Assembly: GCA_030448265.1 (NCBI GenBank)
Contig: JAUJNG010000005.1
Coordinates: 1-64,000, forward strand
Direction: 5' to 3'
Length of the DNA: 64,000 nucleotides
DNA from: Abditibacterium sp.
Lineage (GTDB): Bacteria > Armatimonadota > Abditibacteriia > Abditibacteriales > Abditibacteriaceae
Positions 4,288 to 45,947 of this stretch are shown one piece after another. The notes below the pieces were generated by a model that did no database searches, was not told the origin of the DNA, and saw only the letters and a program-made list of their open reading frames with translations. The position numbers and the translations under genes were made by a program. Within the stretch, counting starts at the first letter, position 1, and every line of letters starts with the position of its first letter.

Positions 4288-4474
4288 CCACGCAATGTGT
4301 GACGTGTTGTGGAACGTGAGAGTCTGTCATTCCGAGGAGGCACGACGATGAATCGGTCTCAGTCTCCACTCATTGGTGCCGAAATGAGTGAAAACTGCGG
4401 CTGATTCCTCAGTCGCCGAGGCTCCTTCGGAATGACAGGCGCCTCTGGGCCAGAACAAGTCACACATTGCGTGG
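4288..4474. repeat. Long inverted repeat, family A (full-length form)
   Basis: Outer arms CCACGCAATGTGTGAC / GTCACACATTGCGTGG around core GTCATTCCGAGGAGGCACGACG ... GGAATGACAG. Confidence 0.85.
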
Positions 4475-15603: not shown

Positions 15604-15777
15604 TAGGTAACTCAAGTTGCCACCAACTGCGCGCGTTGTCATTCCGAGGAGGAACGACGAGGAATCAATGGCAGTTTCTGCCGATTTTCGGCCCAAACGA
15701 GTCCAAGCTGTTACCGATTCCTCGTCGTTCCTCCTCGGAATGACAACGCGCGCAGTTGGTGGCAACCTGGGTTAGGT
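15604..15777. repeat. Inverted repeat, family A variant
   Basis: GTTGCCACCAACTGCGCGCGTTGTCATTCCGAGGAGGAACGACGAGGAATC / GATTCCTCGTCGTTCCTCCTCGGAATGACAACGCGCGCAGTTGGTGGCAAC. Confidence 0.95.
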
Positions 15778-21207: not shown

Positions 21208-21388
21208 CACTTAATGTGTGAGTTATTGTGGAGCGTGAGGGCCTGTCATTCCGAGGAGGCACGACGAGGAATCAGCCGCAGTTTCGGGTCACTTGGGCCG
21301 AAATGAGTGGAGATTGTGACTGATTCCTCGTCGTGCCTCCTCGGAATGACAGGATCTCACGCTCCACAACAACTCGCACTTTGCGTGG
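21208..21388. repeat. Inverted repeat, family A (full-length form)
   Basis: AATGTGTGAG..GTGGAGCGTGAGGGCCTGTCATTCCGAGGAGGCACGACGAGGAATC / GATTCCTCGTCGTGCCTCCTCGGAATGACAGGATCTCACGCTCCAC. Confidence 0.95.
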
Positions 21389-35218: not shown

Positions 35219-35361
35219 AGACCTCTTGCAAAAGTAGCGAAAGCGGTTTGTAGGGGTGCCGCGAGGCGCGTGTGGAAAGCGTCCCAGGGTGTCAACACGC
35301 GCCTCGCGGCACCCCTACAAACCGACGAACATCCAAATCTCTGCACTTTTGCAAGAGGTCT
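35219..35361. mobile_element. MITE-like element, family E copy 1, carrying a nested palindrome
   Basis: Terminal inverted repeats AGACCTCTTGCAAAAGT / CTTTTGCAAGAGGTCT around CGGTTTGTAGGGGTGCCGCGAGGCGCGTGT / ACACGCGCCTCGCGGCACCCCTACAAACCG. Confidence 0.8.
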
Positions 35362-37687: not shown

Positions 37688-38038
37688 TTTTGCTCCCTGT
37701 AAGAAGTGGTTGAGGACTCGGAAAGGGCCTGAATCCTCGCGTTACAGCCCGCGCCAGAGCAAACCAAAAACCAAACCAAGGGTTTTTTAGCAGAAAAAGG
37801 AGAGAATCCCCTGCGTCAGGCAAGAAGAAGTTTGCTAACACACCAGTAGTGAAAAGAAAAATTGCGCGCTGATTTCCGCGCTCAAGCCACCGCTACATTA
37901 CTTCGCCCTCAACCAAGTCACGCGCAAGCCGCCAAACGACTGGACACGGACTGCAAGCGGCCAGATACAGCGCCTTGTCGTGCTGCCTTTGGTATGCTGC
38001 CATCACTGCTGAGCGTCTCAACCCGATGATTTGCGATT

Positions 38039-38205
38039 AGACCTCTTGCAAAAGTGGCTTGCAGCGACTGAAGTCACCGCAACAACGACGCGAAACCGGC
38101 CTTCGCAGGTTGGGGAGTCTCCAGTCCGCGCCGGCGGACTTCGCGCTGGTGTTGCGGTGACTTGAGTCGCTGCCTTTTTAGGACAGGCACTTTTGCAAGA
38201 GGTCT
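38039..38205. mobile_element. MITE-like element, family E copy 2, carrying a nested palindrome
   Basis: AGACCTCTTGCAAAAGTG / CACTTTTGCAAGAGGTCT around GCAGCGACTGAAGTCACCGCAAC / GTTGCGGTGACTTGAGTCGCTGC. Confidence 0.8.
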
Positions 38206-38430
38206 AGTGATATTTTTAAGTGCCGCGCCGCCCAGGCCCAGGATGCCTGAACCAATGCCACAAAGTAATGCCGCAGCAACCCATGCCGAAGCGCCGGAAA
38301 AGCTGAACCTGCCTGTCATTACCTTAAGGTCTTTAAATTGATCTGTGGCAAACGCTGCTGCTGGAAGTGCGGCACCTATGATGAAAGCACCTGCGAACCA
38401 GCGCAACCAATAATTCTGGAATAGCCTCAT
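38074..38430 (-). CDS. Hypothetical membrane protein whose C-terminus is encoded by the MITE-like element
   Basis: MRLFQNYWLRWFAGAFIIGAALPAAAFATDQFKDLKVMTGRFSFSGASAWVAAALLCGIGSGILGLGGAALKNI then repeat-derived residues. Confidence 0.45.
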   Translation of the reverse strand: MRLFQNYWLRWFAGAFIIGAALPAAAFATDQFKDLKVMTGRFSFSGASAWVAAALLCGIGSGILGLGGAALKNITRPLAKVPVLKRQRLKSPQHQREVRRRGLETPQPAKAGFASLLR

Positions 38431-42447: not shown

Positions 42448-43701
42448 ATGACCCAACACCCCAACGCCTGGCACAACGCCCTTTCGCAGCTCGATGCCGT
42501 CGCCGCCAAGATTGGCCTCGAATCGCATATTCACGCGCGGTTGCGCCAGCCCAAGCGCTCGCTCGAAGTTTCGATTCCAGTTGTGATGGACGATGGCAGC
42601 GAGCAGATTTTCACCGGTTTTCGCGTTCAGCATTCGCTCGACCGAGGCCCCGCCAAGGGCGGAATGCGCTATTCGCCGCTCGTCAATGAAGATGAAGTGA
42701 AAGCTTTGGCGATGTGGATGACGTGGAAATGCGCCGTCGTCTCAATTCCCTATGGCGGCGCCAAAGGCGGCGTCGCCTGCGACCCGAAAGCGCTGTCGCA
42801 GAGCGAACTGGAGCGCCTGACGCGCCGTTTTACCACCGAACTTTTGCCCATCATCGGGCCGGAAAAAGACATTCCGGCGCCCGATATGGGCACCAACGCG
42901 CAGGTGATGGCGTGGATCATGGACGCTTATTCGAGCCACGCCGGTTTTTCGGTTCGCGGCGTGGTGACCGGAAAACCGCTTTCGATTGGCGGCTCGGCGG
43001 GCCGCGAGGAAGCCACGGGGCGCGGCGTGGCCATCACGACGCGCGAAATGGCGCGCCGCGCGGGCATTACGCTGGCCGGCGCCAGCGTGGTGATTCAAGG
43101 CTACGGCAACGTCGGGCGTGCGGCGGCGCAAATTTTGTCCAAAGAATTTAGCTGTCGCATCGTGGGCGTGTCCGATGCGCGCGGCGGCTTTTATAACCCG
43201 CGCGGCCTCGACATCGCCCAAATCGGGCGCGACATGACAACGCACGGCGCTTTGCCAGCGCAAATTGACGCCGAGCGCGTCGCGGGCGACGAATTCTTGC
43301 AACTGCCCTGCGACATCCTCATTCCCGCCGCACTCGAAAATCAGATTACGACCCAAAACGCGGCCAAAATCTGTCCTAAAATGCTGGTCGAAGCGGCGAA
43401 TGGGCCGACGACGCCCGAAGCCGACCTGATTTTGCGCGACAACGATGTTGTGGTCGTGCCCGATATTCTGGCGAATGCGGGCGGCGTGACGGTGAGCTAC
43501 TTCGAATGGGTGCAGGGCCGCGACGAGTATTTCTGGGCGGCGGATGAAGTCAACCGACGATTGGAGCGCATCATGGTCAACGCCTGCAACGAAGTCGGGA
43601 CTATTGCGGATCGAGAAAAAGTTGATTTGCGACTGGCGGCTTATATTTCGGGCGTGGGGCGCGTCGCGGAAGCGATTCGGGTGCGGGGGATTTACGGTTG
43701 A
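42448..43701 (+). CDS. Glu/Leu/Phe/Val dehydrogenase (glutamate dehydrogenase)
   Basis: GPAKGGMRYSPLVNEDEVKALAMWMTWKCAVVSIPYGGAKGGVACDP; VVIQGYGNVGRAAAQIL. Confidence 0.95.
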   Translation: MTQHPNAWHNALSQLDAVAAKIGLESHIHARLRQPKRSLEVSIPVVMDDGSEQIFTGFRVQHSLDRGPAKGGMRYSPLVNEDEVKALAMWMTWKCAVVSIPYGGAKGGVACDPKALSQSELERLTRRFTTELLPIIGPEKDIPAPDMGTNAQVMAWIMDAYSSHAGFSVRGVVTGKPLSIGGSAGREEATGRGVAITTREMARRAGITLAGASVVIQGYGNVGRAAAQILSKEFSCRIVGVSDARGGFYNPRGLDIAQIGRDMTTHGALPAQIDAERVAGDEFLQLPCDILIPAALENQITTQNAAKICPKMLVEAANGPTTPEADLILRDNDVVVVPDILANAGGVTVSYFEWVQGRDEYFWAADEVNRRLERIMVNACNEVGTIADREKVDLRLAAYISGVGRVAEAIRVRGIYG

Positions 43702-43706
43702 GATTG

Positions 43707-43959
43707 GAAAATAACCACAGAGACGCGGAGACACAGAGGAAGAGAGAGGTTTAGAGGCTGTTTAGTAAATGGCGATTTTCTTGACGTGCCAGAAAACCCG
43801 TCATGCTGAGCCTGCGAAGCATCTGGCGTGACTGCGATTGGGGCGTCACGCCAGATGCTTCGCAGGCTCAGCATGACGAAAACTGCGAATTTTTCATTTA
43901 CTAAACAACCTCTAAACCTCTCTCTTCCTCTGTGTCTCCGCGTCTCTGCGGTTATTTTT
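43707..43959. repeat. Triple-nested palindrome (families C, TTTAGTAAATG, and L)
   Basis: Outer AATAACCACAGAGACGCGGAGACACAGAGGAAGAGAGAGGTTTAGAGG; middle TGTTTAGTAAATG (43759-43771) / CATTTACTAAACA (43895-43907); inner CGTCATGCTGAGCCTGCGAAGCATCTGGCGTGAC (43799-43832) / its complement (43845-43878). Confidence 0.95.
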
Positions 43960-44405
43960 CATCTCAATACCGTGAATCGTTCGATTTTCCACTTTCCATT
44001 TTCTGGCACGACGCGAATATAAATCAGCGTTCCGGTGCTTTTCGAACCCGTCACGGCGTGGCGAAAATCGACGAAGGGCGGGAAAACGCACACGCTGCCG
44101 CCAAAACCCGCAATCGACACTTTGTTGGCCGCTTCCCATTTGGCTAACGGGCCATGCTTTGCCTCGAACTTGCGCCACAGCTTTTCAAATGCGGCGCCGC
44201 CGGTGCCTTCTTTGCCGCTTTCGCTCAAATAGGCGCGCGCGCCGGCGTAATCGCGGGCCTGGCAGCGCGCGTAGAACGCTTCCACGACACGATTGGAATC
44301 GCGTCCCATCTGCGGCGCGACGCTTCCGGCATAAACGAGAAGTCCAACGAAAACAACGGCGATAGCGCCAAATGCGGCGACAGCGCGCCAGTGAAATGTC
44401 GTCAT
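43959..44405 (-). CDS. Hypothetical protein with N-terminal TM segment
   Basis: MTTFHWRAVAAFGAIAVVFVGLLVYAGS...; ATGA overlap with upstream DoxX-like gene. Confidence 0.65.
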   Translation of the reverse strand: MTTFHWRAVAAFGAIAVVFVGLLVYAGSVAPQMGRDSNRVVEAFYARCQARDYAGARAYLSESGKEGTGGAAFEKLWRKFEAKHGPLAKWEAANKVSIAGFGGSVCVFPPFVDFRHAVTGSKSTGTLIYIRVVPENGKWKIERFTVLR

Positions 44406-44785
44406 ATTGCCTCTTTTTTGAGCGTCGCCGCCCACACCCACCACATCAAAAGCGGCTGCAAGGGCAGTCGCGCCCACCACACCCAGCGCGGCACCAGAAT
44501 CCCGACGCTTTCCGTGCCCTTAAGCGCCATTTCGATATTGGCCGGAAAAACCGCGAGCAGAAGCGCAATCAAACCGATTCCCGCCAGTTTGCGAGTTGCA
44601 CGCGGCCAGATTCCGATTCCACCGGCGATTTCCGCAATGCCGCTCACATAAACCAGTGCGAGCGGAAAAGGCAGATAAGGCGGCATGATTTTGAGATAAG
44701 TCTCCGTCGCGCGGAAGTGCATCATGCCACCGCAAATGAAAATCAGTGATAAAGCGAGACGCGAAAAGGTCGAAAAGCGGGGCAT
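44402..44785 (-). CDS. DoxX-like small membrane protein
   Basis: FICGGMMHFRATETYLKIMPPYLPFPLALVYVSGIAEIAGGIGIW. Confidence 0.8.
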   Translation of the reverse strand: MPRFSTFSRLALSLIFICGGMMHFRATETYLKIMPPYLPFPLALVYVSGIAEIAGGIGIWPRATRKLAGIGLIALLLAVFPANIEMALKGTESVGILVPRWVWWARLPLQPLLMWWVWAATLKKEAI

Positions 44786-45073: not shown

Positions 45074-45161
45074 AATTAACCACAGAGACACAGAGGCACG
45101 GAGATTTTTGAGAGTTGGAGTTTGAAACTTTAAAAAAATCTCCGTGCCTCTGTGTCTCTGT
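45074..45161. repeat. Inverted repeat, family C, interrupted by the IS1-family element
   Basis: AATTAACCACAGAGACACAGAGGCACGGAGATTTTT / AAAAAATCTCCGTGCCTCTGTGTCTCTGT; right arm resumes after the IS as GGTTAATTTT at 45977. Confidence 0.95.
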
Positions 45162-45202
45162 GGTGTCTTTTCTGTATGAGTGTGAGATGTTAAGCTGGAG
45201 TC

Positions 45203-45514
45203 ATGGTCAGCCAAGTTTTCCAATGCCCTCACTGCGGTGAAAGTGAGCGCGTTCGTCGTCATGGTCGCACACGGCGCGGTAGCGAACGCTTGTATTGCAA
45301 TGTCTGCCGTCGCGCTTTTACGCCATCTCCCAAGTCGCGCTCCTTGAGCGAGGAGAAGAAAACTCACATTCTCAACGCCCTGGCCGAGAAGATGCCCCTG
45401 ATCGCGATTTGCCGCACCTTCAAGGTCAGTCCGAACACTGTCTACGCCCTGCTCAAAAAACGTAGAAGCCCTGCCTCCTGTGAACGAGACGCTCAAACCC
45501 TGCGCCTGGGATGA
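45203..45514 (+). CDS. insA: IS1-family InsA-like protein
   Basis: CPHCGESERVRRHGRTRRGSERLYCNVCRRAFTP zinc finger plus HTH. Confidence 0.88.
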   Translation: MVSQVFQCPHCGESERVRRHGRTRRGSERLYCNVCRRAFTPSPKSRSLSEEKKTHILNALAEKMPLIAICRTFKVSPNTVYALLKKRRSPASCERDAQTLRLG

Positions 45515-45947
45515 GTTGGTTGTGGACGAGATGTGGAGTTTCGTTTTCTCCAAAGCGCAGCAAGTGTGGATTTGGGTGGCCCTTTCACGGCGCCACTTAC
45601 AAATCGTGGCGTTTCATCTCGGAAAACGCGACTTAGAAAGTGCTCAGAAGCTGTGGGAGCAAGTTCCTTGGCCGTGGCGCGAGGGGCTGGTCTTCACCGA
45701 TGGATTGAAAACCTATCAGGCGCTCTTTGAAGAGCGTCCTCTCCAGCATTGCCGCTGCCCCAAAGCCGACAAGCAGCGCTTTGGAGAAACCTCGGTGGTC
45801 GAAGGAGCCAACAATGCCTTGCGCCAGGGCGTCTCGTATCTCGGACGCAAAACCGCCGCTTTTGCCCGCTCGACCTACTGGCTCCACATGAGACTCACCT
45901 GGTTCGTCCATCACTGGAATCGAAGGCAAGCTGATAAGTGGAACTAA
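45480..45947 (+). CDS. insB: IS1-family transposase InsB-like (DDE), joined to InsA by frameshifting
   Basis: WDELVVDEMWSFV, VFTDGLKTYQALF, VVEGANNALRQGVSYLGRKTAAFARS; poly-A run at 45455-45460. Confidence 0.9.
   Translation: MNETLKPCAWDELVVDEMWSFVFSKAQQVWIWVALSRRHLQIVAFHLGKRDLESAQKLWEQVPWPWREGLVFTDGLKTYQALFEERPLQHCRCPKADKQRFGETSVVEGANNALRQGVSYLGRKTAAFARSTYWLHMRLTWFVHHWNRRQADKWN

Follow-up and report, generated by a model that had tools for sequence, protein, structure and literature searches.

In a 64,000-nt stretch of an Abditibacterium sp. draft genome, here called the window, the 257 bp that separate two convergent stop codons are taken up by three inverted repeats, one inside another (nest at about 43705-43961). 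How does one palindrome come to enclose a second, and the second a third, and why do the layers share their symmetry so closely? The initial annotation had read the locus as successive insertions of palindromic elements into the loops of earlier ones, or as the product of a mechanism favouring hairpin loops.

Geometry and gene context of the nest

The upstream gene (42448..43701, forward strand, 417 aa), presumably encoding a glutamate dehydrogenase (GDH)-like protein, stops 6 nt before the nest and has orthologues at 72% on the amino acid level in a congener and at 53-59% in many phyla. The convergent downstream ORF (43959..44480, reverse strand, 173 aa), for which a Pfam match was not found, abuts the outer arm with its stop codon.

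The nested repeats reported at 43707-43959 are real. The outer arms (43705-43771 and 43895-43961) are 67 nt long, 123 nt apart and 96% complementary, with mismatches at three positions, while the inner arms (43799-43832 and 43845-43878) pair over 34 nt at 100% around a 12-nt loop. Dinucleotide shuffles gave an expectation of no chance matches for layers 1 and 3, and the nest folds as RNA at -196.5 kcal/mol (z = -26). The claim that all three layers are concentric holds exactly for the outer and middle ones, which share a dyad at 43833; the dyad of the inner palindrome (43838.5) is offset by 5.5 nt, owing to the unequal spacers that separate layer 2 from layer 3 (27 nt left, 43772..43798; 16 nt right, 43879..43894). 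Layer 1 passes directly into layer 2, the two having the appearance of one arm; they can be separated only by reference to other copies, at the TA at 43752-43753.

Layers 2 and 3 as a single MITE

A 266-bp query covering the nest gave 125 matches in the 4.95-Mb draft genome, and comparison of these copies dissects the locus. Layers 2 and 3 together form a 159-bp unit (43754-43912) that lies between duplicated TA dinucleotides (43752..43753 and 43913..43914) at the dyad of layer 1. The unit is bounded by 18-nt terminal inverted repeats, the left one at 43754..43771 (GAGGCTGTTTAGTAAATG, forward) and the right one at 43895..43912 (reverse), with one mismatch between them, a length within the roughly 15-30 bp usual for MITEs. 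Four sister copies were identified (C16:118845-119006, C38:269172-269333, C25:99818-99980 and C16:19700-19861), giving five in total at unrelated sites; the sisters have related, unequal spacers and in most cases a TA or TTA flank on both sides. The left spacer in the window is related to those of the sisters, and the right one differs from the left in length and sequence. Judged by these copies, layers 2 and 3 make up a single mobile element, the MITE F3-E (frame F3, core E). Across the genome, TA was found on both sides of 31 of 46 such elements (45 MITEs plus one element that carries a transposase).

Matches to the F3 end pattern number 12 in this genome, and each of 2 of the 60 relatives compared has a lone stray match; paired F3 ends were observed nowhere outside this genome. 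An autonomous F3 element was not found in this genome, which is 93% complete. Frame F2, a similar TA-duplicating frame, has an 852-bp relative (C7:159205-160056) that is flanked by a TA duplication and whose ORFs match HTH_Tnp_4 and DDE_Tnp_4. On this parallel, mobilization of F3 by an IS5-like enzyme is a reasonable guess.

Layer 3 consists of a CGTC-tagged unit of family E (43799..43832, forward) and a second, inverted unit (43845..43878, reverse). The E unit begins with CGTC (CGTCAT...), has AT at its stem start and is paired with an inverted copy at almost every site. A single unit is predicted to fold as DNA into five pairs with a 10-nt loop, as against the 8-9-bp stem and 4-5-nt loop of families CGTC-1 to -4, and it is therefore termed REP-like only. 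Frames F2 and F6 contain core E as well, as does an F4-like frame in the congener, and the cores housed by frame F3 include a C-like one (C7:8376) and one of A type (C23:13502); to judge from these copies, frames and cores are combined in many ways. The window holds further palindromes of frame/core type, namely F4/A at 4288-4474 and 21216-21379, F1/A at 15608-15774, F2/J at 35219-35361 and F2/H at 38038-38206.

Mobilization of the inner layer by a RAYT protein found no support, as none of nine Y1_Tnp loci examined has E, A or F3 units adjoining the gene in the manner of a RAYT gene flanked by REPs. Five full-length, closely scoring Y1_Tnp genes (C5, C24, C40, C12 and C39; loci L074, L078, L082, L086 and L090) are apparently IS200-like, and E, A and F3 units were likewise not found beside them.

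The outer layer is an older, terminator-like palindrome

The outer layer belongs to family C (CCACAGAGACACGGAGACACAGAG). Its left arm (43708..43753, forward) ends in the TA target and its right arm (43913..43958, reverse) in a T-rich tract. Family C recurs at about 27 further places in the genome, at none of which a MITE occupies the centre; some copies sit within F1 frames, and the apex is T/A-rich in many. The copy at C25:2939-3030 has an uninterrupted loop (GGTTTAAATC) with an apex reading GAGGTTTAAATCTC, which corresponds, without the interruption, to GAGGTT-TA-MITE-TA-AACCTC in the window. By this comparison it is an empty site of the kind the initial annotation had described, at the level of the family and not of the orthologous locus. 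When the GDH-like flanking gene was used to look for an orthologous empty site, no genome in the collection (from which records of the same species are possibly absent) was close enough; the nearest, the congener, has an ordinary terminator at the corresponding place.

Family C repeats are also present in the congener and three other genera (G001, G002, G022 and G035), a wider distribution than that of paired F3 ends, and the outer layer is therefore the older. In the window, its stem is followed by a T run on both strands (GGTTATTTTT and GGTTATTTTCC) between convergent genes, the structure of a bidirectional intrinsic terminator. Family C thus appears to be a terminator-like repeat, and the copy in the window a predicted bidirectional terminator. 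Another family C palindrome (45079-45164) lies beside an IS1-like transposase gene pair (45203-45947, DDE_Tnp_IS1).

Other nests and the statistics of landing

Two further nests are built in the same way. In the one at C40:121404-121675, an F1 MITE with an A core occupies the exact dyad of a D palindrome and has a TA on either side; in the other, at about C13:99384-99626, the host is a CAGATG-type palindrome and the guest an F2 MITE whose core is E3, again with TA at the exact dyad. A further nest at C25:81163-81440 is less clean, and at C20:102850-103280 (L039) an F2-E MITE sits off-centre in an F3-like element together with A and T palindromes, so nesting is not always concentric. In other D palindromes (C40:125042-125141 and C42:102154-102254), the stems are conserved and the loops vary, and the arms continue outwards into perfect, locus-specific extensions that reach about 36 nt.

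How often such landings are expected was estimated from stretches totalling 1.264 Mb (about 25% of the genome) with simple gene calls of our own. In this sample, 257 palindromes with arms of at least 18 nt occupy 23.8 of 291 kb of intergenic DNA (about 8%), and 146 of 7922 intergenic TAs fall in palindrome loops. Accordingly, 0.85 of the 46 elements would be expected within palindromes and 3 are seen (P ~0.05). These estimates depend on families and frames that were chosen by eye, after the fact, from this genome, and on a background of one quarter of it. The proposed preference for hairpin loops is not demonstrated by the landing numbers, which do not lie clearly above the share of TAs in loops. 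Nor need it be invoked for the dyad landing in the window, since the MITE targets TA and the only TA of this family C palindrome away from its base is the one at the dyad.

Exact dyads are a different matter. Only 3 of 7908 intergenic TAs in the sample lie at one, and 3 of the 46 elements do (0.017 expected, P ~9e-7, with the same definitions and background). The exact symmetry of the three nests is not chance; either insertion is aimed at dyads or the arms became symmetrical later.

Evidence for arm-to-arm copying

Sister MITEs bear on this choice. Among F2-H MITEs, read by eye, six have one short and one long spacer (X/Y), two have the short form on both sides (X/X) and one the long form (Y/Y), and the Y/Y copy carries identical locus-specific letters on both sides. 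Likewise, four F1-A elements have unequal spacers and four have matching, locus-specific ones, again as read by eye. Identity between arms is 0.961 within a locus versus 0.923 for shuffled partners, and 0 of 1000 shuffles reached 0.961. From these sister elements, together with mechanisms known from E. coli and yeast, we infer that the exact symmetry of the nest may be due to arm-to-arm copying by template switching, a recognized error of replication. Selection for pairing is a possible alternative source of the higher arm identity, although it would not readily yield both X/X and Y/Y forms. The spacers of the F3-E MITE in the window are still unequal, and arm copying is therefore not universal. 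The duplicated 14-nt loop of the D palindrome hosting the C40 nest was considered as proof of copying and is only suggestive, since D loops vary greatly between copies. A universal rule by which MITE flanks turn symmetric was also rejected, as 43 of the 46 elements show little flank symmetry (score 7 or less); asymmetric flanks would be expected for MITEs in plain DNA if copying needs a stem on both sides of a mismatch.

Proposed origin and alternative explanations

We consider it probable that the nest arose by two transposition steps followed by smoothing of the arms. Earlier and elsewhere, a REP-like inverted pair of family E would have become the core of a short F3 MITE frame. The resulting 159-bp F3-E MITE would then have moved as a unit into the apex TA of an older family C palindrome, duplicating the TA. 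Finally, template switching from one folded-back arm of the long hairpin to the other (quasipalindrome correction) may have produced near-perfect arms up to the border of the MITE. The first two steps are supported by the comparison of copies, and insertion into an older palindrome is well supported; the third is suggested by the sister elements. As the RNA of the nest still folds as a two-way terminator-like hairpin, the insertion may have been tolerated for this reason. The idea of successive insertions thus survives in part: the TA duplication, the uninterrupted family C copies and the two further nests point to one palindromic element entering the middle of an older palindrome, but layers 2 and 3 arrived as one MITE, and three insertions at this place are not indicated. 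Of the layers, each of which the initial annotation proposed to look for alone, the outer one is found so; the middle and inner ones occur together at the four sister sites.

These distributions also bear on whether the three layers could be a single composite element that moves whole. The two arms do look continuous, yet layer 1 lacks the MITE at its other sites and layers 2 and 3 stand without layer 1 at four places, contradicting constant co-occurrence of all three and making this the least probable reading of all. Hardly more credible is an assembly or amplification artefact (an inverted chimera): the genome is a 43-contig draft, but the layers belong to repeat families that recur at many places, also in other genomes, and show target duplications, and the reading frames on either side of the nest are intact.

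Were the MITE transposase to prefer a TA at the apex of an extruded hairpin or cruciform, it would have chosen an already perfect palindrome, and arm copying would be superfluous. The excess of elements at exact dyads fits such targeting, as does the fact that one of the free exact dyads belongs to a family C copy (C25:2981). Against this, all but three of the 46 elements lie in DNA of low flank symmetry, the apices of most uninterrupted hosts are imperfect (10-60 nt), and arm copying is seen independently in the F2-H spacer forms; we regard dyad targeting as unlikely. Somewhat more doubtful is a broader scheme in which palindromes grow in concentric shells through an interchangeable frame-and-core system, with a dyad-preferring transposase and arm copying that perfects each layer. 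Chance landing with subsequent tolerance, in which a TA-inserting element occasionally hits a loop and insertions into terminators that can still fold survive, agrees with the number of loop landings and with the rarity of palindromes in divergent intergenic regions (21/214 versus 119/585). It can serve as the first half of our preferred account; as a full explanation, dispensing with arm copying, it does not account for arms that are exactly symmetrical as far as the TA in each of the three nests, and it is improbable.

Relation to known repeats and palindrome abundance

The kinds of element involved (MITEs, REP-like dimers, terminator-like repeats and quasipalindrome correction) are known; their density and combination are unusual. 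A literature search for nested bacterial MITEs returned nothing relevant. The closest precedents are pneumococcal repeats within one another (PMC3049150) and REP dimers within long palindromes (PMC3733652). In the former, BOX, RUP and SPRITE repeats insert into one another and SPRITE is terminator-like; their sequences are unrelated to the nest, and concentric insertion at a dyad is not described for them in the passages considered. In the latter, REP dimers lie within long palindromes in A. variabilis and H. neapolitanus, and REPs within small palindromes in T. roseum; the CGTC-tagged dimers (Di Nocera 2013) share with core E the tag, the AT at the stem start and the inverted pairing. Like bacterial TA-duplicating MITEs related to IS5-like and IS630-like elements, the F3-E MITE is short, non-coding, intergenic and multi-copy with terminal inverted repeats, and frame F2 offers a parallel through its DDE_Tnp_4-bearing element; unlike them, its interior is a palindromic core common to unrelated frames. 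Work in E. coli and yeast has established template switching that raises the likeness of inverted-repeat arms (PMC7202029, PMC8604942), and the process has also been put forward for RNA hairpins (PMC8794818); the same likening of arms is suggested here by natural element families.

The nest yields an insertion order for a nested palindrome, and the X/Y, X/X and Y/Y forms of one element provide a natural record of arm-to-arm copying. Palindromes that are both long and perfect are as a rule unstable. In this genome, long palindromes occupy about 131 loci in 464 kb (C42 1-264000 and C25 1-200000), roughly 10 times the density in 400 kb of the congener. Loss of the hairpin nuclease SbcCD was rejected as the cause of this abundance, since SbcD-like and SbcC-like genes are present (C42:142304-146715). 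With some tenfold more palindromes than the congener despite these genes, how palindromes arise and persist becomes testable.
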